DNA of 64,000 bases from NCBI GenBank assembly GCA_016109435.1, contig JAEILR010000007.1, positions 124,001 through 188,000 of the forward strand, in the 5' to 3' direction. The DNA comes from Methanomassiliicoccus sp. Lineage in GTDB: Archaea; Thermoplasmatota; Thermoplasmata; Methanomassiliicoccales; Methanomassiliicoccaceae. The notes below the pieces were generated by a model. That model saw only the letters and a list, made by a program, of their open reading frames with translations, made no database searches and was not told the origin of the DNA. This document shows positions 36,240-57,484 of this stretch, piece after piece. The position numbers and the translations under genes were made by a program. Numbering within the stretch: the first letter of the stretch is position 1; each line of letters begins with the position of its first letter.

Positions 36240-36259
36240 GGTCCAACATTCGGTATCAG

Positions 36260-36276
36260 TTGGATGATTCATCCAA
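36260..36276. promoter_or_regulatory. Palindromic operator shared with cobT
   Basis: TTGGATGATTCATCCAA is a perfect 8-1-8 palindrome located on the predicted transcription start of btuFCD. The outer arms TTGGAT-N5-ATCCAA are identical to those at 57468-57484 in front of cobT. A dimeric repressor that responds to corrinoid or cobalt is the natural inference; no regulator gene is identified in the window. Confidence 0.7.
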
Positions 36277-36308
36277 TTGTGGTTCAGGATAACTGGAGGG
36301 ATTAGAAA

Positions 36309-37415
36309 ATGAGTTCTGGGAACAGGAAAATGATCGCGATCGGGCTGGTCGCCGTCCTCATCGTCGCCGTGGTGGCGGTGGCGTTGGCGATGAGCAATCC
36401 GTGGGGCTCCGGGACGGACGCCGCTACGGTGACCGATGCTACAGGAACGAACGTCACCATGTCCAAGGCACCGGAGAGGATAGTGTCGGGCGCGCCGGAC
36501 ATCAGCGAGATCGTCGCCGCGCTTAACCTGACCGACAAGCTGGTCGCGGTCACCGACTACTGCGACTACCCTCAAGGAGTGGCGGACGTTCGTGACGCCG
36601 GGAACACCATCGGAGGGTTCTTCACCCCCAACTACGAGAAGACCATCTCCTTCGCTCCCGACCTAGTGATCCTGAACGACGGAGTGCAGACCCAGAAGGA
36701 CATGGCCACCCAGCTGAGGGGCGCGGGCTACACCGTGCTGGTGGTCCACGCGGCCACCGACGTCGAGACGGTGTACAAGAACATCGAGATGATCGGCAAG
36801 GTCGTGGGGAAGCAGTCCGCCGCCGAGGACATGGTCGCGGGAATGAAGTCCCAGCTATCGTCCATCGAAACCAAGGTGAGCGGCGAGGACAAGCCCAACG
36901 TCATGTTCGTGACCTATGCCGAGGAGAGCTTCACCAACGTGTACCCTGCCGGCGGGACGACCGCCATCGGCGAGATCATCAACCTGGCCGGGGCCGACAA
37001 CGTGTTCCAGGACATGGACGGCTTTCAGATGGCTTCGGACGAGGTCCTGAAGTCCAAGGCCGCGACCACGGAGGTCATCATAATGACCATCATGTACTCC
37101 ACCGAAACCCCGGAGAACAAGAGCGCCTGGTTCAGCTCCGACCCCATCTGGAAGGAGAGTCCTGCGGTAAAGAATAATAAGGTATACTACCTGACGGGGC
37201 AGGCCGAGAACATCTTCAACCGGGAATCGGTGAGGACGATCAACGCGGTCCAGCTGATGGCGGAGATAGTGCATCCCGATGCCTTCGAGTCCAAGGTGCC
37301 CTACTCTGCCGACAGTATAAACAAGATCGGAGATGAATATCTCCAATACCTTCCCTCGGGGACCGCAGCGCAGTCGTCCACCGTCACCATGGTGGCGGCG
37401 ATGACCCGCGAGTGA
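36309..37415 (+). CDS. btuF: Corrinoid ABC transporter substrate-binding lipoprotein-like protein
   Basis: 368 residues. One N-terminal membrane anchor (residues 8-28, MIAIGLVAVLIVAVVAVALA) leads to an extracellular class III solute-binding protein: the two lobes include VSGAPDISEIVAALNLTDKL, FAPDLVILND and GEIINLAGADNVF. The position before FecCD-type permease and ATPase genes and among cobalamin genes indicates corrinoid uptake, though a related metal-chelate ligand cannot be excluded from the sequence alone. It begins an eight-gene operon; its TGA overlaps a GTG of btuC. It follows the palindromic operator. Confidence 0.85.
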   Translation: MSSGNRKMIAIGLVAVLIVAVVAVALAMSNPWGSGTDAATVTDATGTNVTMSKAPERIVSGAPDISEIVAALNLTDKLVAVTDYCDYPQGVADVRDAGNTIGGFFTPNYEKTISFAPDLVILNDGVQTQKDMATQLRGAGYTVLVVHAATDVETVYKNIEMIGKVVGKQSAAEDMVAGMKSQLSSIETKVSGEDKPNVMFVTYAEESFTNVYPAGGTTAIGEIINLAGADNVFQDMDGFQMASDEVLKSKAATTEVIIMTIMYSTETPENKSAWFSSDPIWKESPAVKNNKVYYLTGQAENIFNRESVRTINAVQLMAEIVHPDAFESKVPYSADSINKIGDEYLQYLPSGTAAQSSTVTMVAAMTRE

Positions 37416-37435
37416 GCGCATCCGGGGAAAACCTC

Positions 37436-38482
37436 ATGGAAAGCACGATGGTCCAGGAAACGAAGGGCAGGCTACTGCTGGTGCTGGCCATCGGCCTTAT
37501 TTCTCTTTTGCTTCTCATGCTGCTGTCCTGGTCGGTAGGGGCGGTGGACGTTTCGTTCACCAGCGTCCTGGACCACCTTATCTACATCCTGTTCAATCTG
37601 GGCCCCCAGCCGGCCAACGCGGAACAGCAGATCGTGTGGTCGAGGGTCGTCCGCTCGGTGGCGGTCATCGGGGTGGGCATCGGCCTGTCCGTCTCCGGCG
37701 TGGTGATGCAGGCGCTCATCCGTAACCCCCTAGTGGACCCGTACATCACCGGGGTTTCTTCCGGAGCAGCGCTCGGAGCGATACTCTCCCTGCTGGCTGG
37801 CATCTCGGTGATAACCCTGGGAGTGTTCACCACTCCCATCGCCGCCCTCATCGGCGCGGTCGCCGCGTTCTTCACCACCATGGCCCTGGCCGAATCGGCC
37901 GGCGGCAAGTCCGTCAACTTCGTCCTCAGCGGCATGATCGTGGGGATCATGATATCGTCGATCACCACCGTGCTCATCGTGTCCACGAATGATAACCGCC
38001 TGCACGGGGCGCTGTTCTGGCTGTACGGCTCCTTTGCCTACATGTCGCCCCTCAAGGCGGTGCTCATCATCGTGCCGGTGCTGTTCATCAGTCTGCTCAT
38101 CCTTCTGTATGCCAGAGAGCTGAACGTGGTGCTCCTGGGGGACGAGCACGCCCGGCACCTTGGTCTCGACGTGAGGAGGTTCAAGAGGGTCTCTATCCTG
38201 GTGGTGTCCGTCCTTACGGCGATCTCGGTGGCCTTCTGCGGGATCATAGGCTTCCTCGGTCTCATCGTCCCCCACACCGCCAGGATGATCGTGGGGGGCG
38301 ACCACCGGTTGCTGATCCCGACATCCATGGTATTGGGCGCCAATGTCCTTCTGGCCGCGGACATCTTCTCCCGCCTGGCCACCAGGCCCAACGAGCTACC
38401 CATCGGCGCGGTCATTTCACTGATCGGCGCCCCGTTCTTCATTTATCTCATGATCAAGAGGGGGAAGGAATATGGCGGATGA
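37436..38482 (+). CDS. btuC: Corrinoid ABC transporter permease (FecCD family)
   Basis: 348 residues from ATG 37436 (356 from GTG 37412, which overlaps the btuF stop). It has about ten membrane helices and FecCD-type motifs: SVSGVVMQALIRNPLVDPYI near residue 85, GVSSGAALGAILSLLAG, and FCGIIGFLGLIVPHTARMIV near residue 265, including the loop that contacts the ATPase. It is the membrane channel of the vitamin B12 importer with BtuF and BtuD. The btuD gene starts eleven bases before its end. Confidence 0.9.
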   Translation: MESTMVQETKGRLLLVLAIGLISLLLLMLLSWSVGAVDVSFTSVLDHLIYILFNLGPQPANAEQQIVWSRVVRSVAVIGVGIGLSVSGVVMQALIRNPLVDPYITGVSSGAALGAILSLLAGISVITLGVFTTPIAALIGAVAAFFTTMALAESAGGKSVNFVLSGMIVGIMISSITTVLIVSTNDNRLHGALFWLYGSFAYMSPLKAVLIIVPVLFISLLILLYARELNVVLLGDEHARHLGLDVRRFKRVSILVVSVLTAISVAFCGIIGFLGLIVPHTARMIVGGDHRLLIPTSMVLGANVLLAADIFSRLATRPNELPIGAVISLIGAPFFIYLMIKRGKEYGG

Positions 38483-39278
38483 TCCGCAGGTGTCCATCAC
38501 CATCGAGGGTGTGAAGTTCGGCTACAACGGCACCGAGGTGCTAAAGGGGGTCGAGTTCGAGGGTAAGAGAGGCGAGTTCATCGGCCTGATAGGACCGAAC
38601 GGCTCGGGCAAGAGCACCCTCATGCGCCTGATGAACGGCATCCTCAAGCCCCAGGTCGGCACCATATGGCTGGAAGGGAAGGACCTCGACAAGATGAAGG
38701 TCGACGAGATCGCCCGGGTGTGCGCCAACGTCCCCACCGAGTTCACCGAGGACTTCAGCATGTCCGTGCAGGACCTGGTGTTCCTGGGGCGGTACCCTTT
38801 CGCCAAGGGCCTGTGGTGGGACAACAAGGAGGACGAGGGAATGGTGGCCGAGGCCATGAAGAAGTTCGGGGTGTACCATCTCCGCGACCGCAGGTTCTCC
38901 GAGCTGTCCTCGGGCGAGGCCCAGAGGGTGCTCCTGGCCAAGGCCGTGGTGCAGTGCCCCCGGGTCATGCTGGTGGACGAGCCGTCCGCCCACCTGGACC
39001 TCAAGTACAAGCTGGAGGTGATGGAGCACCTGCGGGAGCTGCTCAGCGGGAACGTCACCATCGTCATCGCCTCCCATGACCTCAACCTGCTGGCCAAGTA
39101 CTGCGATAGGGTGATGATCCTGTCCAAGGGGAAGATCATCGCCTTCGGGACGCCCCGCGAGGTCATCACCGCGGAGATGGTGGAGAAGGTGTACGGCGTG
39201 GAGGTCGTGGTCCTTGATGATGGGGAGGACATCTTCGCCATCCCCCGGAGGACCAAGCGCAGGGAGGAAGGGCAATGA
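38472..39278 (+). CDS. btuD: Corrinoid ABC transporter ATP-binding protein
   Basis: 268 residues. Walker A is GPNGSGKSTLMRLMNG, the signature is LSSGEAQRVLLAKA, Walker B is VMLVDEPSAHLD, and the H-loop is IASHDLN. It is the ATPase of the B12 importer. It overlaps btuC by 11 bases and cobD by four bases. The end, FAIPRRTKRREEGQ, is basic. Confidence 0.92.
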   Translation: MADDPQVSITIEGVKFGYNGTEVLKGVEFEGKRGEFIGLIGPNGSGKSTLMRLMNGILKPQVGTIWLEGKDLDKMKVDEIARVCANVPTEFTEDFSMSVQDLVFLGRYPFAKGLWWDNKEDEGMVAEAMKKFGVYHLRDRRFSELSSGEAQRVLLAKAVVQCPRVMLVDEPSAHLDLKYKLEVMEHLRELLSGNVTIVIASHDLNLLAKYCDRVMILSKGKIIAFGTPREVITAEMVEKVYGVEVVVLDDGEDIFAIPRRTKRREEGQ

Positions 39279-40402
39279 GCGTCGAGCACCGGGTCCGCCC
39301 GGAGGTCCGGGCGATGGTCCGGCCGCGCCACGGCGGGGACGTGTGGGGCCGGGCGGACGTGCGCGACTACAGCTCCAACGTCAATCCCCTGGGCCCGCCG
39401 GCCCGGCTGTACGAGTACATGGCCGGAGCGGCCAATGACATGGAGAACTATCCGGACGACAGCTGCGCGGAGCTGAAGGAGGCGATCGCCCGGCGGTACG
39501 ATGTCCGGGCTGACAACATCATGATGGGGGCCGGTTCGGCCGAGCTCATACGGCTGTTCCCCGAGGTGTTCGTGCATCCGGGCGACCGGGTGGTCATGCC
39601 CCGCCCCACCTTCTCGGAGTACGGCTTCGCCTGCCGGCTGATGGGGGCGAGGCTGATCGATCTTCCGCTCCCCGAGGATGACGCTTTCCGTCTGGACGTC
39701 GATGACCTGATCGGGGAGATGGTCCCCGGGACCAGGGCGGTGTACGTGTGCAATCCCAACAATCCCACCGCCCGCATGCTATCCCGCGGCGAGGTCCTGG
39801 AACTGGTGGAGGAAGCATCACGCAGGGACATCATGTTCTTCCTCGACGAGACCCTGCTGGAGCTATCGGAGCGGGACCGCGACGTCTCCTGCGTCGGAGA
39901 GGTGGAGGCCCACGACAACCTGTTCATCATCCGGTCGTTCACCAAATCCTTCGCCATGCCCGGGATGCGCATCGGCTACGGCTTCGGCAGCAGGGAGGTC
40001 GTCAGGTACATGGACGCCGCCCGACTGTCCTGGAACCTAGGGACTCTGGAGCAGCGGGTGGCGGCCCGGCTCATGAACGAGGAGCAGGACCACGTCCGCC
40101 GGGCGGTGGCCATGCTGGTGGAGGAGAAGGAACGCATGCGCCACCAGATATCCCTGATACTGGACAGCGAGGTGCGGCTTCCGGACTCCTATTTCTTCTT
40201 CCATCCCCTGAACGGGATGGGCCTCACTTCGCCGCAGTTCCGCGAGGCGATGCTGCGCCAGAATGTCCTGGTGAGGGACTGTTCGTCCTTCGGACCTCCC
40301 TGCGGCGGATACTCAAGATTCTGTGTCAAGACCAGGGACAAGAACGAGGAGTTCCTGAGCGCGCTCCGGTCGGTCGTGGAAGGGATCGGCGGGGGACGGT
40401 GA
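39275..40402 (+). CDS. cobD: L-threonine-O-3-phosphate decarboxylase / HisC-like aminotransferase
   Basis: 375 residues of PLP fold type I. Substrate- and cofactor-binding segments are YSSNVNPLGPP (as in CobD and HisC), GAGSAELIRLFPEVF, CNPNNPTAR and the Schiff-base Lys in SFTKSFAMPGMRIGY. In this operon the enzyme most probably makes (R)-1-amino-2-propanol O-phosphate for the CbiB step; a histidinol-phosphate aminotransferase role is the alternative because the two families are close. It overlaps btuD by four bases. Stop TGA. Confidence 0.82.
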   Translation: MSVEHRVRPEVRAMVRPRHGGDVWGRADVRDYSSNVNPLGPPARLYEYMAGAANDMENYPDDSCAELKEAIARRYDVRADNIMMGAGSAELIRLFPEVFVHPGDRVVMPRPTFSEYGFACRLMGARLIDLPLPEDDAFRLDVDDLIGEMVPGTRAVYVCNPNNPTARMLSRGEVLELVEEASRRDIMFFLDETLLELSERDRDVSCVGEVEAHDNLFIIRSFTKSFAMPGMRIGYGFGSREVVRYMDAARLSWNLGTLEQRVAARLMNEEQDHVRRAVAMLVEEKERMRHQISLILDSEVRLPDSYFFFHPLNGMGLTSPQFREAMLRQNVLVRDCSSFGPPCGGYSRFCVKTRDKNEEFLSALRSVVEGIGGGR

Positions 40403-40439
40403 GCGTACGGACGCCTGGATATACGCTATAACGATACCG

Positions 40440-41402
40440 GTGATGGCCCTGGCCATCGACCTGCTGGTAGGAGAGCCCCCCAACCGCATCCATCCAGTGG
40501 TGTGGATGGGAAAGGTGATCGGCTACCTCGATGGCCTGGTGGAGCGCAAGGAGCCCCGCCGGTCGGCCCGGGAGAGGGCGCTGGGAGTCGCCGTCAGCAT
40601 CATACCCATCCTAATCTTCGTGCTGCTGTTCACCCTTCTCCTGGCCGCGCTCCGCAACTGGCTGGGCATGGTCGTCTGGGCCCTGGCCAGCGCGGTGCTG
40701 TTCAGCACCCTGTTCGCCATCCGTTCGCTGGAGACCCACACCGCCCCCATGATCGAGGATCTGAAGAACGACGATCTGGACGCTGCCAGGGCCAAGGTAG
40801 CGAGGGTGGTGTCCAGGGACGTCAGCAAGCTGGATAAGGCCCACATCACCTCCTGCGCCGTGGAGACCGTCTCCGAGAACCTGGTGGACTCAGTCCTCTC
40901 CCCGATGTTCTACTTCGGCCTGGCCGGCATCCCTGGGGCCACCCTGCTGAGGGTCGCCAACACCGAGGACGGGATGATCGGCTACCTCAGCGAGAAGCAC
41001 CGCTACGTAGGCTGGTTCGCCGCCCGCCTCGATGACTGCCTCCACTATGTCGTCGCTCGCATGTCCGTCCCCTTCATCATGCTCGCCCTGGCCCTCCTGG
41101 GCAAGGACTGGAGGAACGCATGGCGTGCGGCCAGGCGGGATCACGGCCAGACCACCAGCCCCAACAAGGGGTGGCCGATGGCGGCGGTGGCCGGCGGCCT
41201 TGGCGTGAGGTTCGAGAAGATAGGGTATTACTCCATGGGGGACGGCAAGGTGCCGACGGACCCGAACGTCATCGCCGACACCATCAAGGTGATGAAGGTG
41301 ACCGCGGTACTGTTCTTCCTCCTAGTGCTGATTCCCCTGTTCGCGTTCATAGGTATCAATGTCCAGCTGTTCCTAGAGGACCTTTTGCTGGGGTGGTTGT
41401 GA
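40440..41402 (+). CDS. cbiB: Adenosylcobinamide-phosphate synthase CbiB
   Basis: 320 residues from GTG 40440 (ATG 40443 is equivalent). It has LVGEPPNRIHPVVWMG at the start, a membrane segment near residue 60, SCAVETVSENLVDSVLSP and NTEDGMIGYLSEKHRYVGWF, all CbiB family. It joins aminopropanol (phosphate) to adenosylcobyric acid at the membrane. The frame continues upstream without ATG or GTG as a hydrophobic segment (WIYAITIPV) that would complete the first membrane helix; an earlier non-standard start is possible. Confidence 0.9.
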   Translation: MMALAIDLLVGEPPNRIHPVVWMGKVIGYLDGLVERKEPRRSARERALGVAVSIIPILIFVLLFTLLLAALRNWLGMVVWALASAVLFSTLFAIRSLETHTAPMIEDLKNDDLDAARAKVARVVSRDVSKLDKAHITSCAVETVSENLVDSVLSPMFYFGLAGIPGATLLRVANTEDGMIGYLSEKHRYVGWFAARLDDCLHYVVARMSVPFIMLALALLGKDWRNAWRAARRDHGQTTSPNKGWPMAAVAGGLGVRFEKIGYYSMGDGKVPTDPNVIADTIKVMKVTAVLFFLLVLIPLFAFIGINVQLFLEDLLLGWL

Positions 41403-41406
41403 GAAC

Positions 41407-42552
41407 ATGACCGATTTCGATGTCAGGATCGAGATGGGAGAATATCTCGGGAAGCCGGTGGCCATAGTCCGCCTTCCCGGCAGGTACAGGGTGCTGAGCT
41501 CCACCATCATGGGCGGGGGGTTCGCGGAAACGGACACGATCTTCATCCTGGAGGTGAAGATGGGATATGACAACTGCAGGCCGGAGGACGACCTCGAAGA
41601 GGTCCGCCGCCGCTACTCGCTCCCGGAGGACTGCGTCGGGTTCATGACCGCGGCCGATGTGAACCGAGTGCTGACGGTCAAGAGGGACGTCCTCAACGGG
41701 AAGAAGGCCATCGTGGTGGCGACCGCGGGGGTCACCAACGCGGTGTACGCGGGAGAGAGGCTTCCCCAGGAGATCATTGACCTGCTGCCCAAGCACGTCG
41801 CCGGGACCATCAACATCATCGCGGTCCTTGATCGTCCGGTCCAGGACTGCGGGCTGGCCGGCGGCATAATCACCATGACCGAGGCCAAGTCGGCTGCCCT
41901 CATGGACATGAAGGTCAAGGGAACGGGCACAACCAGCGACGCGGTGGCCATCGCCTGCCCCGTCGGCGATGGGGACAAATACTGCGGCCCGGCCACCGAC
42001 GCGGGCATGGTCATGGCCCGCACTGTGCGCGAGGCGGTGGCCGACTCGATACGCAAGTGGAACGGGAACGGCCGGGGCGCGAGAGACTTCGGCTACCGGC
42101 TGGACGAGCTGGGGATCGGCCCGGAGGAGATGTGGGAGGCGGCGCACGCCCTCTACATTCCCGACCCCACTTGGGAAACCGAGCGCATCAAGGCCATGTT
42201 CATGCGCCACCTCACGGTGCTGAGAAAGGACATCAATGTCAATGCCATGATGTACGCGGCCATCAACATGGAGGAGATGGGCAACCGCAACGAAATGTAC
42301 GGCCTGGACGACGGGCGGTTCCTCCAGGACCCCGTGCACCTGGTGGCCGACGAGCTGCTGGGCATCGCCCTGGCGGAGTACGTCGCGGGCACCAAGGGAC
42401 TGTTCGAGTACGTGCGCTACGACAAGAAGAAGCCGGGCATCCTGGGCACCCTGGGGCCGTTCCTGGATGATATCGTGGCTTCGCTCATCGGCTCCATCAT
42501 GTCCCGGATCTACACCGAGCTGCTGGAGGGTGAGGATAAATTAGGTTCGTAG
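41407..42552 (+). CDS. cbiS: Bifunctional adenosylcobinamide amidohydrolase / alpha-ribazole phosphatase (CbiS)
   Basis: 381 residues. Residues 1-230 are the CbiZ amidohydrolase (GRYRVLSSTIMGGGF, KRDVLNGKKAIVVATAGVTN, KVKGTGTTSDAVAIACPVGD), which opens imported adenosylpseudocobalamin or cobinamides for salvage. Residues about 235-381 match CobZ, the phosphatase domain related to phosphatidylglycerophosphatase A (LGIGPEEMWEAAHALY, INVNAMMYAAINMEEMGNR, DPVHLVADELLGIALA). The fusion is the CbiS arrangement described in Methanopyrus kandleri. It therefore supplies two salvage steps. Ends in TAG, overlapping cobS. Confidence 0.88.
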   Translation: MTDFDVRIEMGEYLGKPVAIVRLPGRYRVLSSTIMGGGFAETDTIFILEVKMGYDNCRPEDDLEEVRRRYSLPEDCVGFMTAADVNRVLTVKRDVLNGKKAIVVATAGVTNAVYAGERLPQEIIDLLPKHVAGTINIIAVLDRPVQDCGLAGGIITMTEAKSAALMDMKVKGTGTTSDAVAIACPVGDGDKYCGPATDAGMVMARTVREAVADSIRKWNGNGRGARDFGYRLDELGIGPEEMWEAAHALYIPDPTWETERIKAMFMRHLTVLRKDINVNAMMYAAINMEEMGNRNEMYGLDDGRFLQDPVHLVADELLGIALAEYVAGTKGLFEYVRYDKKKPGILGTLGPFLDDIVASLIGSIMSRIYTELLEGEDKLGS

Positions 42553-43340
42553 GCGCCATCAAGGCGCTGTTCTCCCTGTTCACGGTCATTCCCGTGAACG
42601 TCACCGGCGAGGACGTCGACGAGCTGTCGCGCCATTTCTGGCTTGCTCCCATCATCGGCCTGTTCTACGGCCTGGTGGCCGGGGGACTGTTCCTCATTCT
42701 CACTCAGGTCTTCGACGGCCTGGTGTCAGCGGTGCTGGTCATCTTCGTGGTCCACGGCCTCAACCGGTTCCTGCACTTCGACGGCCTGATCGACCAGGGG
42801 GATGGGCTCATAGCCACCGGGACGCACGAGAAGAAGCTGGCGGCCATGAAGGACACCCGCGTCGGGGCCGGCGGGGTCGGCTTCGGCATCATGTTCACCT
42901 TCCTTACTATCGTCTCACTGGCCTTCGTCGAACAGGTCTCGGTGCGGGTCATGGTGTTCTTCCTCCCCCTGGCCATGGAGGTGCTGGCCAAGAACGCTCT
43001 GGTGACCGTGGCCGCCCTCGGGCAACCAAGGGAGGGGCTGGGCAGTCCGTTCGTCAAGAACACGCCGAAGTGGCACGCGGCCCCTTCCGCGCTGCTCTCC
43101 CTGGCCATCCTGTACGTGGCCCTAATACTCCTTTATCCATGGAACCCCGTCTACCTCCTCGCCCTGGTCGTCCTCATGGTGCTGACAAGCTCGGCCGTCG
43201 GTGCGGTGACGGCAGCCGTCGGCAGGAAGAGCTTCGGCTGCGTGAACGGGGACATCATGGGCGCCACCAATGAGCTGGCCAAGCCGGCGGTGCTGCTCAT
43301 GGGAATGATGGGGGTGGTACTGTTCCTGTTGATGTTCTAG
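42540..43340 (+). CDS. cobS: Cobalamin (5'-phosphate) synthase CobS (AUU start)
   Basis: 266 residues from ATT 42540. The membrane protein with six to seven helices joins adenosyl-GDP-cobinamide to alpha-ribazole. FSLFTVIPVNVTGEDVDELS is the family's FLTRIPV-like start, and HGLNRFLHFDGLIDQGDGLI is the conserved catalytic Asp-rich segment. A GTG start at 42594 would delete the first conserved helix. The ATT lies just downstream of GGAGGGTGAGG and inside the end of cbiS, and no ATG, GTG or TTG is in frame in between. Stop TAG. Confidence 0.88.
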   Translation: MRFVGAIKALFSLFTVIPVNVTGEDVDELSRHFWLAPIIGLFYGLVAGGLFLILTQVFDGLVSAVLVIFVVHGLNRFLHFDGLIDQGDGLIATGTHEKKLAAMKDTRVGAGGVGFGIMFTFLTIVSLAFVEQVSVRVMVFFLPLAMEVLAKNALVTVAALGQPREGLGSPFVKNTPKWHAAPSALLSLAILYVALILLYPWNPVYLLALVVLMVLTSSAVGAVTAAVGRKSFGCVNGDIMGATNELAKPAVLLMGMMGVVLFLLMF

Positions 43341-43939
43341 TGACCGCTGGAGGCCGGGGCAGCCGCATGCGGGACATGCCAGTGGAGAAGCCGCTCGTAC
43401 CGGTGCTCGGCCGGCCGATGATCGATCGGGTGCTGGGCGCCGTCGACGGCGCTGCCGGCGTTGGCCGTGTGTACGTGTCGGTGAGCCCCCACGCTCCGGC
43501 GACCCAATTATACCTGGAGGCGCGGGGAATAGCGTCCATCTCCACTCCCGGGGCGGGGTATAGCGAGGACCTCAACCTGGCGATGTCCCACATCTCTTCG
43601 GACAGGGTGCTGGTGTGCCCGGTGGACCTCCCCCTGCTGACGTCCGAGGGGATCGAAACGGTGATAGCGGCGTCCGCCCGCTCTGGGGCGGGCTCCTTCT
43701 GCGTCACCGTGCCGGTGGATCTGATGACCTCATTGGGCATGGCCCTGACCTACTCCCTGGAGGTCGGCGGCCGGAAGGTGGTCCTGTGCGGCGTGTCGGT
43801 GGTCGACCGCATGCTCATGCTCACCGGCAGGGAGCTGGAGCAGGACTACCTGGTGACCGAGGCCGAGGAGTTCGCCCTGAACGTCAATACCCTGGATGAC
43901 CTGAGGCGGGCAGAAGCGGCCCTGGCGCGGCGGCTCTAG
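43340..43939 (+). CDS. cobY: Adenosylcobinamide-phosphate guanylyltransferase CobY
   Basis: 199 residues from GTG 43340. It has the nucleotidyltransferase loop VTAGGRGSRM, EKPLVPVLGRPMIDRVLGAV and VSVSPHAPATQLYLE, matching archaeal CobY, which makes adenosyl-GDP-cobinamide. The GTG overlaps the cobS stop, but the first beta strand upstream (DVLV, starting with a GTT) is also in frame, so the protein may be four residues longer with a non-standard start. It closes the operon. Stop TAG. Confidence 0.88.
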   Translation: MTAGGRGSRMRDMPVEKPLVPVLGRPMIDRVLGAVDGAAGVGRVYVSVSPHAPATQLYLEARGIASISTPGAGYSEDLNLAMSHISSDRVLVCPVDLPLLTSEGIETVIAASARSGAGSFCVTVPVDLMTSLGMALTYSLEVGGRKVVLCGVSVVDRMLMLTGRELEQDYLVTEAEEFALNVNTLDDLRRAEAALARRL

Positions 43940-45381: not shown

Positions 45382-45481
45382 GTCCGTTACCCTATGCTCC
45401 TTGTCAGGTCATCAGCAATAAATCCGATGGCCGCCCTAAGCGAAGGAAACAAATACTGTTCGACGTCAACCACGTCATAGG

Positions 45482-48603: not shown

Positions 48604-48679
48604 GCCAGCGATCGCTTGTCGGGGGAGGCCAAAAGCATTAGATAGGGGTGGGGTGGAATAGAATTCGTTCACAGACGAC

Positions 48680-49177: not shown

Positions 49178-49332
49178 ATGATGCGGGCCGATCGCGAGGG
49201 CCATCGCTGCCATCGAGGGCGGGACCAGATCGATCTCGTCCCTGTCCAAACAGGTGTGGACGGAGGGTGGCTGCATCGGCCTCCAACGATGGCCCGACCG
49301 AACGCGATAGTAGCAGGAAGGAGAGGGCCCCA

Positions 49333-50691
49333 TTGTCCGCCTACCAGCTGATGATAAAACCCTGTGGCCCGGCCTGCAATCTCAATTGCACCTACTGCTA
49401 TTATCTTCCCAAGCAGAGGATGTTCGACGGAAGCGCCACCAGGATGTCCGACCTCACCCTCGAGGAGATTACTCGTCAGTACATCTCGTCCCACGGCAGC
49501 GGGACCATCACCTTCGCCTGGCAGGGCGGCGAGCCCACCCTAGCGGGTCTGGACTTCTTCCGTAAGGCCCTGGAACTTCAGGAAAAGTATCGGCCACCGG
49601 GCATGATGATCGAGAACACCCTGCAGACCAACGGGACCCTCCTGGACGATCGATGGTGCCGGTTCCTTCACGAGGAACGGTTCCTGGTCGGCCTGAGCGC
49701 GGACGGTCCTCCGTCGCTGCACGACATCTATAGGGTGGATCGAACGGGAGAGCCCACCTCCGGGAAGGTGGTACAGGCGTCCAGGCTCCTGAGGAGGCAC
49801 CGGGTGGAGTTCAATACCCTGACGGTGGTCGATCGGGAGAACGCCCGGCATCCCCTGCAGGTATACCGTTACCTGCGTAATGTCATCGGGTCCCGGCACA
49901 TGCAGTTCATCCCCTGCGTTGAACCTAAGGGGTTCGAGCGCGTTCCTCCCCAGGGCAGGGACGCCAAGGACCTGCCCACCATAGGGGACGACGCGGCCCG
50001 GCCGGGGACCGAGAGGTCCGTGGTCACAGAATGGTCGGTGGACCCCGTGGACTACGGGTCGTTCATGACCATGATCTTCGACGAGTGGCTCCAAAAGGAC
50101 GTGGGAAGGGTCTTCGTGATCAACTTCGAGGTGGCGCTGGCATCATGGATGGGGCTGCCCCCCACGGCATGCTCGTTCGCGGAGCACTGCGGCGACGCCC
50201 TGGTGGCGGAACATGACGGGAGCATCTACTCCTGTGACCACTATGTCTATCCCGAGCACAGGTTGGGAAGGATACAGGAGGTCGAGCTGTCGGAGATGGT
50301 GTCCTCCGACCAACAGGCACGGTTCGGGAGGGAAAAGGCCAGAGGGCTGCCGGCCCAGTGCAGGGAATGCGAGTTCCTGTTCGCCTGCCATGGAGAATGC
50401 CCCCGGAACCGCTTCATCCGAAACCCCGATGGCGGGACAGGCCTCAACTACCTATGCCCTGGCCTCAGGCGGTTCTTCATCCATGTAGGTCCATGGATGA
50501 AACTCATGGCCGACGGGATACGGGCAGGGAGGACCGCTGAAGACATCGCGCGGGCCCAAGCTCCCGGGAGGGAGCGGGAGCGGGCGGATCGCCCGAGCGG
50601 GAACGGTCGCGGCGGTATGGTCTCCGGACATCCTCGGTCCTGCCGTCCGCCTGAGGCCGGCGTGCCGCCTCCAGATCAGGGAAGGAGATGA
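49333..50691 (+). CDS. Anaerobic sulfatase-maturating radical SAM enzyme
   Basis: 452 residues from TTG 49333, supported by AAGGAGAGGG upstream; GTG 49267 would add 22 atypical residues. The radical SAM Cys motif is CNLNCTYCYY near residue 15. The SPASM domain shows CSFAEHCGDALVAEHDGSIY, SCDHYVYPEH and CRECEFLFACHGECPRNRF, with LCPGLRRFF. It oxidises the active-site Cys of a sulfatase to formylglycine without oxygen. A typical AnSME ends near residue 405, but this one runs on for about 45 residues rich in Arg, Gly and Pro (GRERERADRPSGNGRG), possibly a lost stop codon. The arylsulfatase with a Cys motif lies 2 kb away. Confidence 0.92.
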   Translation: MSAYQLMIKPCGPACNLNCTYCYYLPKQRMFDGSATRMSDLTLEEITRQYISSHGSGTITFAWQGGEPTLAGLDFFRKALELQEKYRPPGMMIENTLQTNGTLLDDRWCRFLHEERFLVGLSADGPPSLHDIYRVDRTGEPTSGKVVQASRLLRRHRVEFNTLTVVDRENARHPLQVYRYLRNVIGSRHMQFIPCVEPKGFERVPPQGRDAKDLPTIGDDAARPGTERSVVTEWSVDPVDYGSFMTMIFDEWLQKDVGRVFVINFEVALASWMGLPPTACSFAEHCGDALVAEHDGSIYSCDHYVYPEHRLGRIQEVELSEMVSSDQQARFGREKARGLPAQCRECEFLFACHGECPRNRFIRNPDGGTGLNYLCPGLRRFFIHVGPWMKLMADGIRAGRTAEDIARAQAPGRERERADRPSGNGRGGMVSGHPRSCRPPEAGVPPPDQGRR

Positions 50692-50965
50692 TGGTGTGAA
50701 CCATAGGTAATGCGCCCCAGGACCCGTCGGGCAGGAACGATGTTATCGGTATCGGGTCCGTAATGAAAGGACACGGCTGACGGCCTGGGAACAGAGGCGC
50801 CATCTCCATCCCGGGGCAGGGCGCCTAGCCGTGCCGAGAGGGAAAAACCACCTTTTTGAACCCATCGCTGGCCGTTCAATAATTTATCATCAGGTAACGT
50901 TTAACTATTCCCCTCTCACAACGTTGACCGGCCCAGCCATCAAGCGGGGTTTGGAGGCATGCGTT

Positions 50966-51424
50966 ATGATGGAAACTCAGCAAAAGCAGAGGGTCATGGG
51001 GCCCGTGGATTTCCTGGTGGTCAGGTTCCCCGAGAACCGGTTCACAGGAAAGATCGCCCCGGAGATCCGCAAGTTGGAGGACTCAGGCATTGTGAGGGTG
51101 ATCGATCTGGTCTTCATCCGAAAGGACCAGGAAGGGAACGTCGAATCCTTCGAGATCAGCGACCTGGGAGGGGAGGACGAGAACGCCTTCCAGACCTTCT
51201 CTGGAAAGGTCGGCGAATGGCTCTCCCAGGAGGACATTGAGAGCATAGGTAGCGAACTGCCGGACAACAGCTCGGCGGGGGCCATCCTGTTCGAGAACCT
51301 ATGGGCGGTCAATCTCAAGGAAGCCATGCTGGATTCGGGTGGGGAACTGGTCGCTCAAGGCCGCGTATCGCCTGACCTGATCGAGCAGGTGAGGAAGAAG
51401 AACGAACCTTCCAGATCGGGATAG
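50966..51424 (+). CDS. DUF6325 family protein
   Basis: 152 residues from ATG 50966; GGAGG spaced eight bases upstream supports it, whereas the longer frame from 50831 does not have a supported start. MGPVDFLVVRFPENRFTGKI and VRVIDLVFIRKDQEG are the visible domain features, with a FENLWAVNLKEAM segment near the end. Members of this family often occur next to SHOCT proteins; the function is unknown. A TATA box lies at about 50880-50888. The SHOCT gene follows 15 bases later. Stop TAG. Confidence 0.75.
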   Translation: MMETQQKQRVMGPVDFLVVRFPENRFTGKIAPEIRKLEDSGIVRVIDLVFIRKDQEGNVESFEISDLGGEDENAFQTFSGKVGEWLSQEDIESIGSELPDNSSAGAILFENLWAVNLKEAMLDSGGELVAQGRVSPDLIEQVRKKNEPSRSG

Positions 51425-51439
51425 ACGGAGGTATGGAAA

Positions 51440-51727
51440 ATGCGAGGAAGAGGTATAGCGTTAGTGGCAGGGGCAAGAATGGGTCAGCGGAGCGCCGCGC
51501 AGCAGGCCCAGGTCCAGGAGCAGCAGCATCAGGCCGAGCTGCAGACGCAGAAGGCCCAGATGGAGGCCCAGATGGCTCAGCAGCAGGCCCAGGCTCAGGC
51601 CCAAGCGGCCGGCGCCACAAAGGTGGACATGACCGCCGAGATCCAGAAGCTGGCCCAGCTGCATCAGTCCGGGGCCCTTTCCGACGCGGAGTTCGCCGCG
51701 GCCAAGCAGAAGCTCCTTTCACAGTAG
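51440..51727 (+). CDS. Stand-alone SHOCT domain protein
   Basis: 95 residues. A basic N-terminus is followed by a long Gln/Ala-rich, likely coiled-coil stretch (AQMEAQMAQQQAQAQAQAAG) and a C-terminal SHOCT domain, EIQKLAQLHQSGALSDAEFA then AAKQKLLSQ. SHOCT is a short oligomerisation motif. It pairs with the DUF6325 gene, and the same domain is fused to the PH-domain protein at 20038. Stop TAG. Confidence 0.85.
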   Translation: MRGRGIALVAGARMGQRSAAQQAQVQEQQHQAELQTQKAQMEAQMAQQQAQAQAQAAGATKVDMTAEIQKLAQLHQSGALSDAEFAAAKQKLLSQ

Positions 51728-51852
51728 GGTCCAGTGAACACCCGGCCGCCTGTCAGTACCAGCTTTGGCGCCACGGCGCGGCCCATCTTCTTTCTATCGT
51801 TCCTCGGTCCGGGCCATCGCGCCGATGGCCCTGCCGCTTGTCGCCTCCCTCA

Positions 51853-52554
51853 TCAGCTTTCCTTCCCCTTCCCCGGCTTCCACGTTCCCACCAGCCTGGA
51901 GATGAGGATGGCCATATACAAGACCCCCATCAGGACCTCGAGGATGACCACCCCCCGGGTCGCCTGGGTTGATGGTAGGATGTCACCGTATCCCAAGGTG
52001 GCCAGGGTCACGAAGCTATAGTATACGAGGGTCGAGAAGCTCATGGCCTGGTCAGGGTTGACGCTGTCCTGGAAGGAGCCCGGGGTCACGGCCTCGATAA
52101 AGGCGAAAAAACAGGCCCATGTCAGGCCTAGCAGCAGATACACCGAGATGGCCTGCCATATGGTGTTGGAATCGACCTCCTGGGTTTTGAACAGGGCGAG
52201 GAACAGGAGGAGCGAGACCAGGCCCAGGATCATGGTCCCGAACAGGTATGAGATCGCGTTGAGGACCGTTCCGCCGAGCAGAAAGTAAGACCATCGCGAA
52301 CCTACCGCCAGGGCCATCAGCACGACCGCGACGGTCCTGGTCACCTTGTGGCCACTGACGGTCAGGACACTGGAGATCAGGATGATGGAGAAGAGGATGG
52401 TGAAGATGAACGACCCTATGCTGCCACTGACGAACGGGAATAGGACCATGAGCAGCGTGAAGAAGATCCACACGGTCATGTATCGGAATCCCTGAAAGAT
52501 ACGCTTCAAGGCCCCGATGGCCCATGACCAAGATGCCGGAACGGGGTCGGTCAT
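51853..52554 (-). CDS. Potassium channel protein
   Basis: 233 residues from ATG 52554. The selectivity filter is TLGYGD at residues 186-191 (FVTLATLGYGDILPST), with about six membrane segments before and after it: the pore pair lies in the C-terminal third, preceded by four more helices in a voltage-sensor-like position, but without an obvious Arg-rich S4. The GGGGACG ribosome binding site lies before this ATG. A longer frame reaches 52812 without support. It probably conducts K+ and is transcribed on the opposite strand to its neighbours. Stop TGA. Confidence 0.88.
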   Translation of the reverse strand: MTDPVPASWSWAIGALKRIFQGFRYMTVWIFFTLLMVLFPFVSGSIGSFIFTILFSIILISSVLTVSGHKVTRTVAVVLMALAVGSRWSYFLLGGTVLNAISYLFGTMILGLVSLLLFLALFKTQEVDSNTIWQAISVYLLLGLTWACFFAFIEAVTPGSFQDSVNPDQAMSFSTLVYYSFVTLATLGYGDILPSTQATRGVVILEVLMGVLYMAILISRLVGTWKPGKGKES

Positions 52555-52709
52555 GTCACGTCCCCTGACACTTGGCCGTGGCCACCTCGGGCCGTCCTGG
52601 CAGCCTCCGCCAGGCGATGCGCCGGCATCCAACAGAGAACACGACATGCATGGCCATATCGATGCTCCCTCTCCGGCGGGGGGAATGACCACACCCCCGG
52701 TCCGGAGGA

Positions 52710-55052
52710 CTAGAACCGGGCCAGAATGGCCCTGGCCTCCTTCTCCAGGTCCACGTACTGTCGTCCGCTCAGATCGATGGCCACCCTGTCGATGGTCCCC
52801 GTGAAGGCCCACGGACGCTCTCCTGGCAGGTCCTCGGTGACCCCTTCGCCGTACCCGCGGCCCACGGTGCAGTAGGTCCCCAGCCCGAACCGGCCGGGTT
52901 GGGTACGGATGGTCCCTTCGCCGACCTTATTGTCGTTGACGAACAGGGTCAGGGTGCCGTACGCCACCCCCGAGGGCTTCTCGCCCTCCCGGTCGAAGGT
53001 CGCGGCAAGGATGATCTTCTCGCCGGCAGGGACGGGATCCTCGGACGCTATGATGACGGTCTCGAGACCCACGAAATTGTAAGCGTACTTCAGGAGGCCA
53101 TCCTTCATGTACAGCACATGACCGCCGAAACGGGTGCCCTCCTGGAACAGGATGCCCTCCGCCCCACCCTCCGGGATGTCGACCACCGCGCCGATCTTGA
53201 AGGAGCGGTTCAGGATGTTGGGGGCGACCGCCTCCGGCACCGGATCGGTCCCCGGGAAGTACACGTAGCGGTCCATCGGTCTGGCCAGCTGAGGTCGGGG
53301 GGAGGTTATCAGCGCTAATGCCGTCCGGTCGTCGATGGGAAGCCCGTAGAACCTTCCCGCGGCCTCATACCAAAGCGCCTTCAGCTCCTCCAGCTTCTCG
53401 GGGTTCTCGGCCGCCAGGTCCTTCGATTCCGAGCGGTCCTCATCGACCTTGTACAGCTCCCAGTGGTCTTGGTTGAAGTGACCCCAGTTGCTGAGGGTGG
53501 GGTGGGTGGTGCTGGCCTTCCAGCCCTTATTCCAAATCCCCCTGCTGCCGAGCATGAGGTAGTACTGGAGGTCCTTGTTGGTGTGGACGAAGACGTTGTC
53601 GAAGGTGTAGCTCATGCTCACCCCTTCCAGAGGCCACTGGGTGTACCCCTTTACCGAACCGGGGAGAGACATGTTCAGGCATTCCAGCACTGTGGGCACG
53701 ATGTCCACCGCATGATGGTACTGCTGCCTTATCCCCCGGCCCTTGATGCCCTTGGGCCAGGAGATGATGAGCATATCGCAGGTCCCCCCGCTGTAAGCGG
53801 CATAACGCTTGAACATCTTGAAGGGGGTGCAGAAGGCGGCCGCCCAGCCCGCTGGATAGTGATTATACGTCCTCACACCTCCGAGCTCGTCGATCATCCT
53901 GAGGTTGGCCTCGATGTCGTCGGGGATGCCATTGAAGAACAGGTTCTCATTCACCGATCCGTTCGGACCGCCCTCGCCGCTGGCCCCGTTGTCCGAGACC
54001 GCCACGATGATGGTATTGTCCAGCTGGCCGGATTGCTCCAGGAAGTCGATGAGCCTCCCGATCTGGTGATCGGTGTAGGTGACGAAACCGGCGTAGACCT
54101 CGGCCATGCGGGCGAACAGCTTCTTTTCATCGTCTGACAGGGAGTCCCAAGGGCGAACGGTGTCCAGCTCTGGCCAGCTCTGACCTTCCGGTCCCTTCTC
54201 ATGGATGAGCGGGTTCAGGGGGGTCAGCTCGGTGTCCTCGGGCATCAGCCCCATCTTCTTTTGCCTCTCCAGGGTCTCCTCGCGGTATCTCTCGTAGCCC
54301 TGGTCGAACCTCCCCTTGTACTTGTCCGCCCATTCCTTGAACACATGGTGAGGGGCGTGGGCGCACCCCGGGCAGAAGTACATGAAGAATGGCTTTTCCG
54401 GAGCGATCTGTTTAGCGTCCTGGATCATCTTGATGGCCTGGTCGGTGAGGTCCTTGCTAAGGTGGTATCCCTCCTCCGGCGTGGACGGCGGATCGATCAT
54501 GTGGTTGTCATAGTACAGGTCGGGATACCACTGATTGGTCTCCCCGCCCATGAAGCCGTAGAACCTCTCGAAGCCCCTATCGGTGGGCCAGTTCCTCTTG
54601 GACGAGGCCTGGTTGCTCTCCTCTTCCGGGGTTAGATGCCACTTGCCAACGGCGTATGTGTTGTACCCCCGCTCCACCAGGATCTCGGCAAGAGTGGCCG
54701 TTTCCGGCGGTATGCGGCCGTTGGTGCCGGGGAAGCCCGTCGTCGCCTCCTCGATGCAGGCCATGCCCACGGTGGTGTGGTTGCGCCCCGTCAAGAGGCA
54801 TGCCCTAGTGGGAGAGCACAGGGCGGTGGTATGGAACTGGCTATACCGCAGACCGGCCTCTCCCAGCCGCTTCATCGTCGGGGTCTCGATGCTGCCCCCG
54901 AAGGGCTCCATGGCCCCGAAGCCCACGTCATCCCATACTATATACAGGACATTGGGCGCGCCCTCGGCGGCCCTCGTTTGCTCATAGGGTCCCCAGTCGG
55001 GGACGGAATCTCGAATATCAATGTTCACGACACCTTTGAACGGTTCCCGCAT
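52710..55052 (-). CDS. Arylsulfatase (Cys-type, formylglycine-dependent)
   Basis: 780 residues, a sulfatase of the alkaline phosphatase superfamily. The N-terminal metal site is IVWDDVGFG (D41 and D42), and the modified residue is Cys79 in CSPTRACLLTGRNHTTVGM. The later KWHLTPEEE and VAVSDNGASGEGG supply more active-site residues. No signal peptide is visible, so it acts in the cytoplasm. GAGGTGAT precedes the ATG. Maturation by the radical SAM enzyme at 49333 is predicted. The C-terminal 150 residues form a beta-rich domain. Stop TAG. Confidence 0.9.
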   Translation of the reverse strand: MREPFKGVVNIDIRDSVPDWGPYEQTRAAEGAPNVLYIVWDDVGFGAMEPFGGSIETPTMKRLGEAGLRYSQFHTTALCSPTRACLLTGRNHTTVGMACIEEATTGFPGTNGRIPPETATLAEILVERGYNTYAVGKWHLTPEEESNQASSKRNWPTDRGFERFYGFMGGETNQWYPDLYYDNHMIDPPSTPEEGYHLSKDLTDQAIKMIQDAKQIAPEKPFFMYFCPGCAHAPHHVFKEWADKYKGRFDQGYERYREETLERQKKMGLMPEDTELTPLNPLIHEKGPEGQSWPELDTVRPWDSLSDDEKKLFARMAEVYAGFVTYTDHQIGRLIDFLEQSGQLDNTIIVAVSDNGASGEGGPNGSVNENLFFNGIPDDIEANLRMIDELGGVRTYNHYPAGWAAAFCTPFKMFKRYAAYSGGTCDMLIISWPKGIKGRGIRQQYHHAVDIVPTVLECLNMSLPGSVKGYTQWPLEGVSMSYTFDNVFVHTNKDLQYYLMLGSRGIWNKGWKASTTHPTLSNWGHFNQDHWELYKVDEDRSESKDLAAENPEKLEELKALWYEAAGRFYGLPIDDRTALALITSPRPQLARPMDRYVYFPGTDPVPEAVAPNILNRSFKIGAVVDIPEGGAEGILFQEGTRFGGHVLYMKDGLLKYAYNFVGLETVIIASEDPVPAGEKIILAATFDREGEKPSGVAYGTLTLFVNDNKVGEGTIRTQPGRFGLGTYCTVGRGYGEGVTEDLPGERPWAFTGTIDRVAIDLSGRQYVDLEKEARAILARF

Positions 55053-55349
55053 GTCCTATCACCTCGCCCCCTCGACCGACACCCCCATGGTGCCTGGCCA
55101 GGGGTTCATGACCAACGTGCCCGGTACGGGATGAAAATAGGTTGGACGCAAATATGGCGGAAAAGCGTTCTATAGTTGGAGAATGAGCGCCGTGACCGCG
55201 GCTGGCCTGTCTGAAAGGGGGCCGGGGACCGGGACGGTGAAAACGTGTTGCTGTTCCCTGCGGTCCGCACCCTTCCGATGTGCCCTTCCTTCCGGGATGC
55301 CAGGTTGGCCGGGGGGATGCCCCCGCGGCACCTATTGATGGACCTGACC
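55053..55349. other. Gap between sulfatase and PH-domain genes
   Basis: 297 bases hold the sulfatase ribosome binding site at the left edge. No TATA box, gene, hairpin or tRNA is clearly visible in the rest. Confidence 0.4.
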
Positions 55350-56048
55350 TCACGCCGGCATGGCGGCCACGGGCCTGTACACGTAGCTGGACAGCATCTT
55401 CTCGACCTCGAAGGGCTTGGGAACATTCTCCCACACCACCCCTCCTCCCGAATGCAACCGAATGCCTGGCTGTCTACGTATCGCGCGGCCCAGTCCTCCG
55501 GAGGTGACGATCGAGATGTCGCCGAACCCGAACGCCCGTTCCAGCAGCGGCTGGTTGAGAGATATGTTCTGCACCTTGTCCAGGCCGGTATCGCTGTGCT
55601 GCAGGTTCAGGAACCCATACTGGCTTATGATCCGTCGGTCGGTGAGGGCGAACGCGGTGTGCCTCCACTGCATATAGGTCATGATCATCGGCAGCGCTCC
55701 CAGAACCACCGGGACCAACACCAGTAAGGCCAGCGACCGGTCCAGGGATACCAGGATGGCGACGGCCGCTCCGGCGATCGCCGCAGGAATGCCGAAGCGT
55801 CGGTCGAACGGTATCATCAGCGCTGCCAGGGCCAGGGCGGCCACCAGGTATAGCAGGCTCCCATCATAGGTCAGGATGATCGCGGCGAAAATGAGGGCCA
55901 CGATCATCATCAGCAGGGGTCTCAGCAATACGACGCTTCCCGCCGGCCGGCTCTCCCATATGATCTTCTCGCCCTGCATCAGATGCCTTCTGTCGAGAAC
56001 CATCTGAGCAGGGGGCTGCGTCGTTTCTACGGACGTCTCCGTTGCCAT
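55350..56048 (-). CDS. Membrane PH-domain (bPH2/DUF304) protein
   Basis: 232 residues. Membrane segments occupy residues 40-120, followed by the PH domain: TAFALTDRRIISQYGFLNLQ, LDKVQNISLNQPLLERAFGF and the ending GVVWENVPKPFEVEKM. It shares the order and many motifs of the protein at 20038-20904 but lacks the C-terminal SHOCT domain. A TATA box at 56157-56165 leaves a leader of about 85 bases. Stop TGA. Confidence 0.85.
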   Translation of the reverse strand: MATETSVETTQPPAQMVLDRRHLMQGEKIIWESRPAGSVVLLRPLLMMIVALIFAAIILTYDGSLLYLVAALALAALMIPFDRRFGIPAAIAGAAVAILVSLDRSLALLVLVPVVLGALPMIMTYMQWRHTAFALTDRRIISQYGFLNLQHSDTGLDKVQNISLNQPLLERAFGFGDISIVTSGGLGRAIRRQPGIRLHSGGGVVWENVPKPFEVEKMLSSYVYRPVAAMPA

Positions 56049-56156
56049 ACAATGACCTCCATACGTTATGCTCCGTTATCGCAGCATCAGCGTACGACGG
56101 GCTGGCTGCAGACGCAAGTCCAGAGGTTCTTGCCTTTGGTCGTTGGGCAAGGGTGA

Positions 56157-56165
56157 ATATATAAT
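56157..56165 (-). promoter_or_regulatory. TATA box of the second PH-domain gene
   Basis: On the minus strand GATTATATATTC lies about 110 bases before the ATG. Confidence 0.5.
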
Positions 56166-56249
56166 CCTATCTTATCTGTCCTAACGGCCGTCTGCACGGA
56201 CCATGGCCCTAGCTGAGGGCAGCGATCGCCGGGAGAGGGGCGGCCTCCG

Positions 56250-56290
56250 ACGGCCCCCGACCCCTGATGGGGTCGCGGTCGGGGTCCGGC
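56250..56290. terminator. GC-rich nested hairpin after cobT
   Basis: GACCCC-TGAT-GGGGTC (56259-56274) is a perfect 6-bp hairpin nested in CCCCCGACC...GGTCGGGG. It lies 50-90 bases past the cobT stop. It could act as a 3' processing or stop signal, although archaeal termination usually needs a T-tract, which is not seen. Confidence 0.4.
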
Positions 56291-56337
56291 CCTTCCACTC
56301 CCGGAAATAAAAGGCTGGGGGGCCTGCCCCTTCCGCT

Positions 56338-57444
56338 CTACCGCCTGGAGACCAGGCGGGCGTAGTTCTTCTCGATCTCGTCCAGGATGGTATGGGCGGT
56401 GATCTTGCCCTCGCTCGCGGCCATCGCCGCGATGGACGAGCCGCCGGCGCCCACGCCCTCCTTGACCAGCCCCGTTTCGTAGATCTTCAGGCCGTCGTAG
56501 CGGGACAGGGAGAAGTTGAGGTTCGCCGAGAGCACCGGCACCTTGCCGATCTGAGAGACCAGGGAGCGGATGTCAGAGTTGCCGTCCTTGGTGATCCAGC
56601 GGGTGGTGCCTATGGCGATGTTGTTCAGCGTGGAGTAGTCCATGCCCTTTATGATCGCGAGCACCGCGGCCATCTGGGTGCCCCCGGCCAGGAGCACGGG
56701 GATCGTTTCCGCCGCTCCCACTGCCAGCCCGGCGGCCGCGGCCATCATGGGGTCTCCGACCGCCTCGATGGCGGCCATGGGGTCCTTGCGGAACGCCTCC
56801 CTCTTCATGCCGCTGGCCTTCAGGCCTTCCTCCACCACCTTCAGCTTCAGTTCATGGGGATTGGCCGGGAGGGTGCTGGATACCTTCCCGTAGGCCTCGT
56901 AGCCCAGGGCCGTGAGCACGCCCAGCGCGGTGGTGGTGCCGCCGGGGATGGACTCGGCGATGACCAGGTAGTTGCTGATCTTGGCCAAGTTCTGGCCCGC
57001 CAGGACCGCCCGGTCGTAGACCTTCTCGGGGTCCTTCACCGACCGCCCGGTGCGGATGTCGTCTCCCGGAGCGCCGTCCAGTTCGAAGTAGGGGACGTGC
57101 GGCCGTACCCTCAGTCCGCCGTTGACCACGAAGAATGGCATCCCCGACAGCTTGATGGAGGACATGGTCACGATGCCCGGCGTGGGGATCCCGTCCGGGG
57201 TCACCGGCACGCCGTCGATGCACTTGCACTTCCCGTAGAACAGCAGCTCCATGTCCGCGGCGGGGGTGAAATCCGTAGCTTCTGGATTGGCACCGGCGGC
57301 GGACAGTCCGGGGATCTTCGCCGTTTCGGTGTTGCCGATGACACAGGCGTAGGTGGGCTGCTTCCCCCATATGCGCTCCAGGAACTTCCTGGCCATTTCT
57401 TCCTCCAAGCAGATGGTTATGTCCTCTGGTACCTTGAACGACAT
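56338..57444 (-). CDS. cobT: Nicotinate-nucleotide:base phosphoribosyltransferase CobT (archaeal type)
   Basis: 368 residues from ATG 57444 with a GGAGAGG site. It has NTETAKIPGLSAAGANPEAT, VTMSSIKLSGMPFFVVNGG, AESIPGGTTTALGVLTALGY and LAGGTQMAAVLAI, the archaeal CobT family. It activates a nucleobase or lower ligand with nicotinate mononucleotide to alpha-ribazole phosphate, the substrate for CobS after dephosphorylation by CbiS. The promoter has the corrinoid operator. Stop TAG. Confidence 0.88.
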   Translation of the reverse strand: MSFKVPEDITICLEEEMARKFLERIWGKQPTYACVIGNTETAKIPGLSAAGANPEATDFTPAADMELLFYGKCKCIDGVPVTPDGIPTPGIVTMSSIKLSGMPFFVVNGGLRVRPHVPYFELDGAPGDDIRTGRSVKDPEKVYDRAVLAGQNLAKISNYLVIAESIPGGTTTALGVLTALGYEAYGKVSSTLPANPHELKLKVVEEGLKASGMKREAFRKDPMAAIEAVGDPMMAAAAGLAVGAAETIPVLLAGGTQMAAVLAIIKGMDYSTLNNIAIGTTRWITKDGNSDIRSLVSQIGKVPVLSANLNFSLSRYDGLKIYETGLVKEGVGAGGSSIAAMAASEGKITAHTILDEIEKNYARLVSRR

Positions 57445-57467
57445 CGTGTCCTCTCCCTTATGTGCGG

Positions 57468-57484
57468 TTGGATAATACATCCAA
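57468..57484. promoter_or_regulatory. Palindromic operator shared with btuF
   Basis: TTGGATAATACATCCAA, extended by a G-C pair to 7-bp arms, overlaps the transcription start predicted from the TATA box at 57501-57510 and lies 24-40 bases before the cobT ATG. The outer arms TTGGAT-N5-ATCCAA equal those at 36260-36276. Confidence 0.7.

Follow-up and report, generated by a model that had tools for sequence, protein, structure and literature searches.

We consider it probable that a 17-base palindrome, TTGGAT-N5-ATCCAA, found twice in a 64,000-nucleotide stretch of DNA from Methanomassiliicoccus sp. (assembly GCA_016109435.1, contig JAEILR010000007.1, positions 124,001 to 188,000; the window below), is the operator of a B12 (cobamide) regulon which extends over the order Methanomassiliicoccales, with a short protein made of a winged helix and the domain DUF4443 as the best candidate for its repressor. 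Methyl-reducing methanogens depend on corrinoid methyltransferases, and in bacteria it is mostly riboswitches that control B12 genes. At the level of sequence the operator, its conservation, the gene set, the promoter geometry and the co-occurrence with DUF4443 are established.

The first-pass annotation of the window had placed palindromes with identical arms at 36260-36276 and 57468-57484, on the predicted transcription starts of two corrinoid loci. Both are there to the base, as are the two half-sites claimed near btuF (Table 1), and TATA-like boxes lie 33 bp (btuF) and 28 bp (cobT) upstream of the palindrome centres. The label of the loci is also correct, the first being a btuF-btuC-btuD-cobD-cbiB-cbiS-cobS-cobY operon and the second cobT. 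In the window alone, with two mismatches allowed, two sites are not significant; their significance comes from the counts in the whole genome and in relatives. The exact pattern occurs eight times in the 2.23-Mb assembly, against none for the reversed control pattern and about 0.05 expected by chance from base composition. Allowing one mismatch adds five sites, most of them adjoining exact sites or at similar types of gene, and with two mismatches the genome-wide search comes near to background (35 vs 13 for the control). The random scatter that would speak against a regulatory element is therefore not seen, and all eight exact copies lie directly 5' of a gene which is nearly always B12-related. 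The expectation that hits would fall only at corrinoid, cobalt or methyltransferase genes holds for most of them and fails at an alcohol dehydrogenase (ADH)/TrpD-like pair, an amino-acid permease and some unassigned genes.

Across Methanomassiliicoccales the exact site is present in 56/61 genomes, with 294 sites in total vs one for the control, and two genomes scored as site-less hold near-identical sites at the expected place (TGGGATATATCATCCCA in G019 and TTGGATGTATCATCCCA in G022). A survey of targets with our own simple gene caller, around 135 sites in 34 genomes, found the palindrome kept 12-77 bp ahead of btuF-like genes in 14 genomes and 14-24 bp ahead of cobT in seven. The other recurrent targets were ADH (ADH-TrpD; nine genomes), dockerin-bearing binding proteins (seven), zf-CobB/CobQ proteins (six), cbiT (five) and the hem operon (five), and altogether 93 of the 135 sites adjoin a B12/tetrapyrrole gene or a recurrently co-regulated one. 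A B12 regulon can be recognised by one cis element that is common to genes of B12 synthesis, B12/cobalt transport and salvage and is kept 5' of their orthologues in related genomes, and both features are found here. The earlier proposal, limited to uptake, salvage and cobT, is supported for these genes but was too narrow, as the regulon also takes in cobalt import, the corrin ring, adenosyltransferase, hem/sirohaem precursors and a cobopeptide maturase.

The aligned sites are also conserved at bases left free by the search: G at -2 (0.69), C at +2 (0.61) and A/T at -1 to +1 (at least 0.96) in the spacer, with a purine at -9 (0.93) and a pyrimidine at +9 (0.87) in the flanks, which gives the full operator form ARTTGGATGWWWCATCCAAYT. 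Of the 67 sites no more than 60 nt from a start codon, 39 have a TATA-like box (score of at least 8) at -42 to -24 from the palindrome centre, vs 8/67 and 7/67 in two control windows of equal width (p about 1e-8). This puts the operator over the predicted transcription start, a usual site for an archaeal repressor and one where archaeal activators do not usually bind. The geometry thus fits a repressor, and the perfect dyad a dimeric protein.

The lead to DUF4443 came from sister families outside the order that have just one exact site each. In f11 and f18 this lone site is found between a winged-helix + DUF4443 gene and the gene of a secreted beta-propeller protein, and in f13 it lies 5' of a DUF4430 gene. 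The order S-adenosylmethionine (SAM) synthetase - DUF4443 - site - beta-propeller is seen in f11, f18 and f6, the last continuing with DUF4430/ECF genes. Among 189 sampled genomes of the class outside Methanomassiliicoccales, 12 of the 13 DUF4443-positive genomes carry the exact site, vs 9 of the 176 negative ones (Fisher p = 1.2e-12, with an effective number smaller than the count because the genomes are related). All sampled members of f11, f13, f14 and f18 hold both, and f23, represented by one 83%-complete genome, has a DUF4443 gene without a site. In Methanomassiliicoccales DUF4443 is present in 60/61 genomes, and the best 80 loci from a scan of the genome contigs with DUF4443 are all in Methanomassiliicoccales-type records; in the loci read there the short copy is mostly 3' of SAM synthetase.

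The copy in our genome matches PF14544 at 113.9 bits (curated cut-off 27), and its N-terminal winged helix matches PF22167 (36.0 vs 30.2 bits) and CggR_N (33.1 vs 30 bits). Its AlphaFold2 model is confident (mean predicted local distance difference test score, pLDDT, 88.5) and has as its best PDB match PH0730 of Pyrococcus horikoshii (2P8T, 6e-12), followed by aspartyl-tRNA synthetases, where the matching part is presumably the GAD insert, and the DNA-bound CggR domain; the f11 copy matches the PH0730-like family in sequence as well (4.9e-12). The fold search against the PDB gave no clue to a ligand. By Pfam the candidate, the only protein of the genome examined in this respect, has neither a MerR-type helix nor a B12-binding domain of the CarH type.

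In the mechanism that we propose, a dimeric winged-helix repressor would cover the transcription start, or sit just beside the TATA box, of genes for corrinoid uptake, cobalt uptake, the corrin ring, adenosyltransferase, the lower ligand and tetrapyrrole precursors. The binder would be the 194-residue DUF4443 protein (PF14544, PH0730-like) and we infer negative control, with cobamide or a late intermediate as the signal. If bacterial B12 regulons under riboswitches are a guide, transcription is probably repressed when cobamide is plentiful and released when it is scarce. The suggestion of the first-pass annotation that a dimeric repressor links B12 uptake and salvage with lower-ligand activation gains support from the shared operator, the TATA geometry and the perfect dyad, with repression itself as the presumed mode of action.

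Separate support for DUF4443 proteins as readers of TGGAT-N5-ATCCA comes from a paralogue and a second palindrome. A longer DUF4443 protein, with an added DUF2111 domain, adjoins mcrC/atwA-like genes in several genomes. The palindrome ATGGAT-N5-ATCCAT matches the B12 operator except in the outer base pair. It is enriched in Methanomassiliicoccales (44/61 genomes), and in 21 genomes a copy stands at the promoter of the long gene, 250-350 nt ahead of its DUF4443 domain; in 15 genomes a copy is found 6.4-8.8 kb past the other side of this gene, and where the sequence was read (L273, L275, L277 and L267) it stands 5' of mcrB. The predicted recognition helices of the two paralogues are near-identical (GEGSMRTIL vs GEGSTRTIL). 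The long protein thus appears to be tied to the sister palindrome at its own promoter and at mcrB, which makes it a candidate regulator of methyl-coenzyme M reductase in the order. A broader proposal, to which we give about equal belief and doubt, is that archaeal cofactor regulation has an unrecognised family in the DUF4443/PH0730 proteins, which would share the operator core TGGAT-N5-ATCCA and have duplicated in Methanomassiliicoccales, the short copy controlling cobamide genes through TTGGAT-N5-ATCCAA and the long one controlling itself and methyl-coenzyme M reductase through ATGGAT-N5-ATCCAT. If so, two sister switches, told apart by a single outer base pair in their operators, would govern B12 supply on the one hand and the methane-forming enzyme on the other.

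Several observations weigh against a cobamide regulon under the short DUF4443 protein. No adjacent gene classed as B12/tetrapyrrole or recurrently co-regulated was found at 42 of the 135 surveyed sites; part of these are B12 genes overlooked by clustering (e.g. adenosyltransferase), and the rest may be chance sites or unrecognised targets. That site and DUF4443 adjoin each other in several families may reflect one arrangement passed on by descent. The promoter of the short gene in our genome carries no site, so that there is no autoregulation pointing to DUF4443. G020, a 99%-complete genome with three sites, lacks the short copy; as the XRE-CBS gene, a normal neighbour of SAM synthetase, is absent from it too, this locus may be missing from the assembly. 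Finally, DUF4443 adjoins SAM synthetase and could therefore sense SAM or methionine. A variant in which the DUF4443 protein does bind the operator while responding to SAM/methionine, cobalt or a tetrapyrrole intermediate instead of B12 draws on this last point, as in the order the gene is always beside SAM synthetase, and on the presence among the targets of the cobalt importer and hem precursor genes, one site having the hem operon on one side and the F430 operon cfbA-E on the other. We regard it as rather unlikely: the commonest targets are corrinoid uptake (btuF) and cobT, which a SAM or haem control would not call for, and the SAM synthetase promoter in this genome has no site.

The regulon could also be real and its regulator another, unlinked protein, with DUF4443 co-occurring through shared ancestry of the same lineages. 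The relatedness of the genomes counted, the lack of a direct link between site and DUF4443 inside most genomes of the order, the fixed position of the short gene beside SAM synthetase instead of B12 genes, and G020 all fit such a protein. It is nevertheless unlikely, since site and gene are both kept in four separate families outside the order while 167 of the 176 DUF4443-negative genomes have no site, since the two adjoin each other in f6, f11 and f18 and the sister operator sits at the paralogue's own promoter, and since Fur and XRE-CBS fail comparable tests.

Some sites stand 5' of the TATA box and some promoters have two sites, with a recurrent spacing of 70-73 bp (eight pairs) and also of 20-34 bp. 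The pairs 70-73 bp apart (about seven helical turns; G000:C23:210563/210636, C23:239224/239294 and C25:29529/29601) bracket the promoter and suggest looping or cooperative binding. Such arrangements would also suit an activator, which we think improbable, as a TATA-like box 24-42 bp upstream of most sites near start codons places these over the predicted start. Fur, of which a member adjoins a site beside cbiM in this genome (L021:3727-4119) and sites in G001, G008, G012 and G013, is a most improbable general regulator with no detectable homologue in G003, G004, G014, G037 and G053, each with 9-11 sites; it could act as a local co-regulator.

Other candidates were also rejected. XRE-CBS, the neighbour of the short DUF4443 protein, shows no association with the site outside the order (p = 0.93). 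No autoregulated transcription factor gene recurs 3' of the site, either among the first downstream genes or in the clusters near sites. A MEDS-PAS protein adjoins btuF in family f3; it was seen in three sampled genomes only and has no DNA-binding domain in Pfam. Lrp/AsnC, 308 bp away in one genome, and PhoU-AbrB, also in one genome, were judged to be there by chance. A cobalamin riboswitch, which the first-pass annotation also did not see, is not indicated, as no Rfam family matched anywhere in the window.

Table 1. Positions of the operators, promoter elements and genes discussed (window numbering unless a locus is given)
Feature	Position	Strand	Remark
B12 operator of btuF operon, TTGGATGATTCATCCAA	36260-36276	.	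perfect 6-base arms
B12 operator of cobT, TTGGATAATACATCCAA	57468-57484	.	perfect 6-base arms
TATA-like box TATATTTA, btuF promoter	36231-36238	+	
TATA-like box GTTTTATA, cobT promoter	about 57501-57508	-	
Putative half-site ATCCAAC	36212-36218	+	upstream of btuF TATA box
Putative half-site GTCCAAC	36241-36247	+	between btuF TATA box and operator
btuF-like periplasmic binding protein (PF01497)	36309-37415	+	operon gene 1; starts 33 bp past operator
btuC, btuD, cobD, cbiB, cbiS, cobS, cobY-like	37448-43939	+	remaining genes of btuF operon
cobT, nicotinate-mononucleotide-dependent phosphoribosyltransferase	56338-57444	-	TIGR00303 well above cut-off
Short winged-helix + DUF4443 protein (PF14544), 194 residues	G000:C13:154212-154787; L245:3707-4291	-	encoded directly after SAM synthetase
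Sister palindrome and DUF4443-DUF2111 gene	L246:3041-3057 and 3064-4041		
Corrinoid adenosyltransferase	L016		exact site
cbiT-led corrin-ring operon	L017		exact site
Sirohaem/hem operon, led by CysG N-terminal-type dehydrogenase + hemA	L018		exact site; divergent from cfbA-led operon
ADH + TrpD-like pair	L019		exact site
31-residue peptide + radical SAM enzyme (NCBIfam CbpB, cobopeptide maturase)	L020		exact site
cbiM cobalt-importer operon	L021		exact site
Amino-acid permease, beside methyltransferase-like genes	L023		pair of one-mismatch sites nearby
cbiT site repeated on small contig	L022 (G000:C9, 6956 bp)		resembles strain variant

Some of these loci have features of their own. The small contig L022 is a near-duplicate, with sequence differences, of the cbiM-cbiT region of contig C13 and probably stems from another strain, the contamination of the assembly being 5.7%. 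In nine genomes the zinc alcohol dehydrogenase and TrpD-like phosphoribosyltransferase (L019:3795-5949) are under the operator, which is often doubled, and perhaps they carry out lower-ligand or ribosyl chemistry. The site at L020:6002-6018 is followed by a short peptide (MSVVMCRMECKVDGNGLSHYIIYDGAGELPF) next to the CbpB-type radical SAM enzyme, with a homologue in another family (L178:3478-3614), and may thus mark a B12-regulated cobopeptide. A NifH-NifD fusion with a NifK-like nitrogenase homologue lies near the operator in genomes of family f2 and in G014 (L136:147-3562, L138, L152, L129 and L120), and a ribonucleotide reductase with a TSCPD domain does so in two genomes, at 90 and 235 bp (L154:1148-3376 and L144:1045-3291). 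Between the two corrinoid loci of the window are genes of a sulfatase-domain protein (PF00884) and of a radical SAM enzyme that may mature it (52710-55052 and 49333-50691).

Palindrome, gene set and candidate protein together make the question of archaeal B12 control testable. The regulon also flags a link to B12 for proteins of unknown role, namely the ADH/TrpD-like pair, the small peptide with its CbpB radical SAM enzyme, the beta-propeller/DUF4430 importer and the nitrogenase-like NifHD-K pair, and the sister operator at mcrB could be the element through which transcription of methyl-coenzyme M reductase is controlled in the order.

Bacterial cobalamin riboswitch regulons have the same gene content (B12 synthesis, B12 transport and cobalt transport), but there control is by RNA, whereas here it would be by a DNA palindrome at the promoter; riboswitches widespread in bacteria, TPP excepted, were not found in archaea (PMC3766115). 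RbkR and ThiR, which regulate archaeal riboflavin and thiamin genes (PMC10746257), likewise put a cofactor pathway under a DNA-binding regulator, and RbkR with DNA was a weak match in the fold search of the short DUF4443 model. In contrast to these two, DUF4443 is neither a riboflavin kinase nor ThiN, and resembles part of bacterial aspartyl-tRNA synthetase. The candidate is alike in sequence and fold to the PH0730-like winged-helix/DUF4443 proteins (PF22167 + PF14544; 2P8T), and in the open-licence literature we found no function assigned to this family, PH0730 appearing only as a family name in a list, no paper naming DUF4443 and no named archaeal B12 regulator. The closest precedent is the cobalamin regulon that RegPrecise predicts in Pyrococcus furiosus, as cited in PMC10746257: it is, like the one described here, an archaeal B12 regulon thought to be under a DNA-binding protein, but its regulator is listed there as 'CblrR (unknown)'. 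PH0730, being a DUF4443 protein from Pyrococcus, would be a natural candidate for CblrR, and if the proposed family is real its Pyrococcus member could be the unknown 'CblR'. Within the literature searched, a protein-controlled archaeal B12 regulon was thus foreshadowed, while the apparent novelty lies in the operator, in the extent of the regulon over the order and in the protein proposed as regulator.

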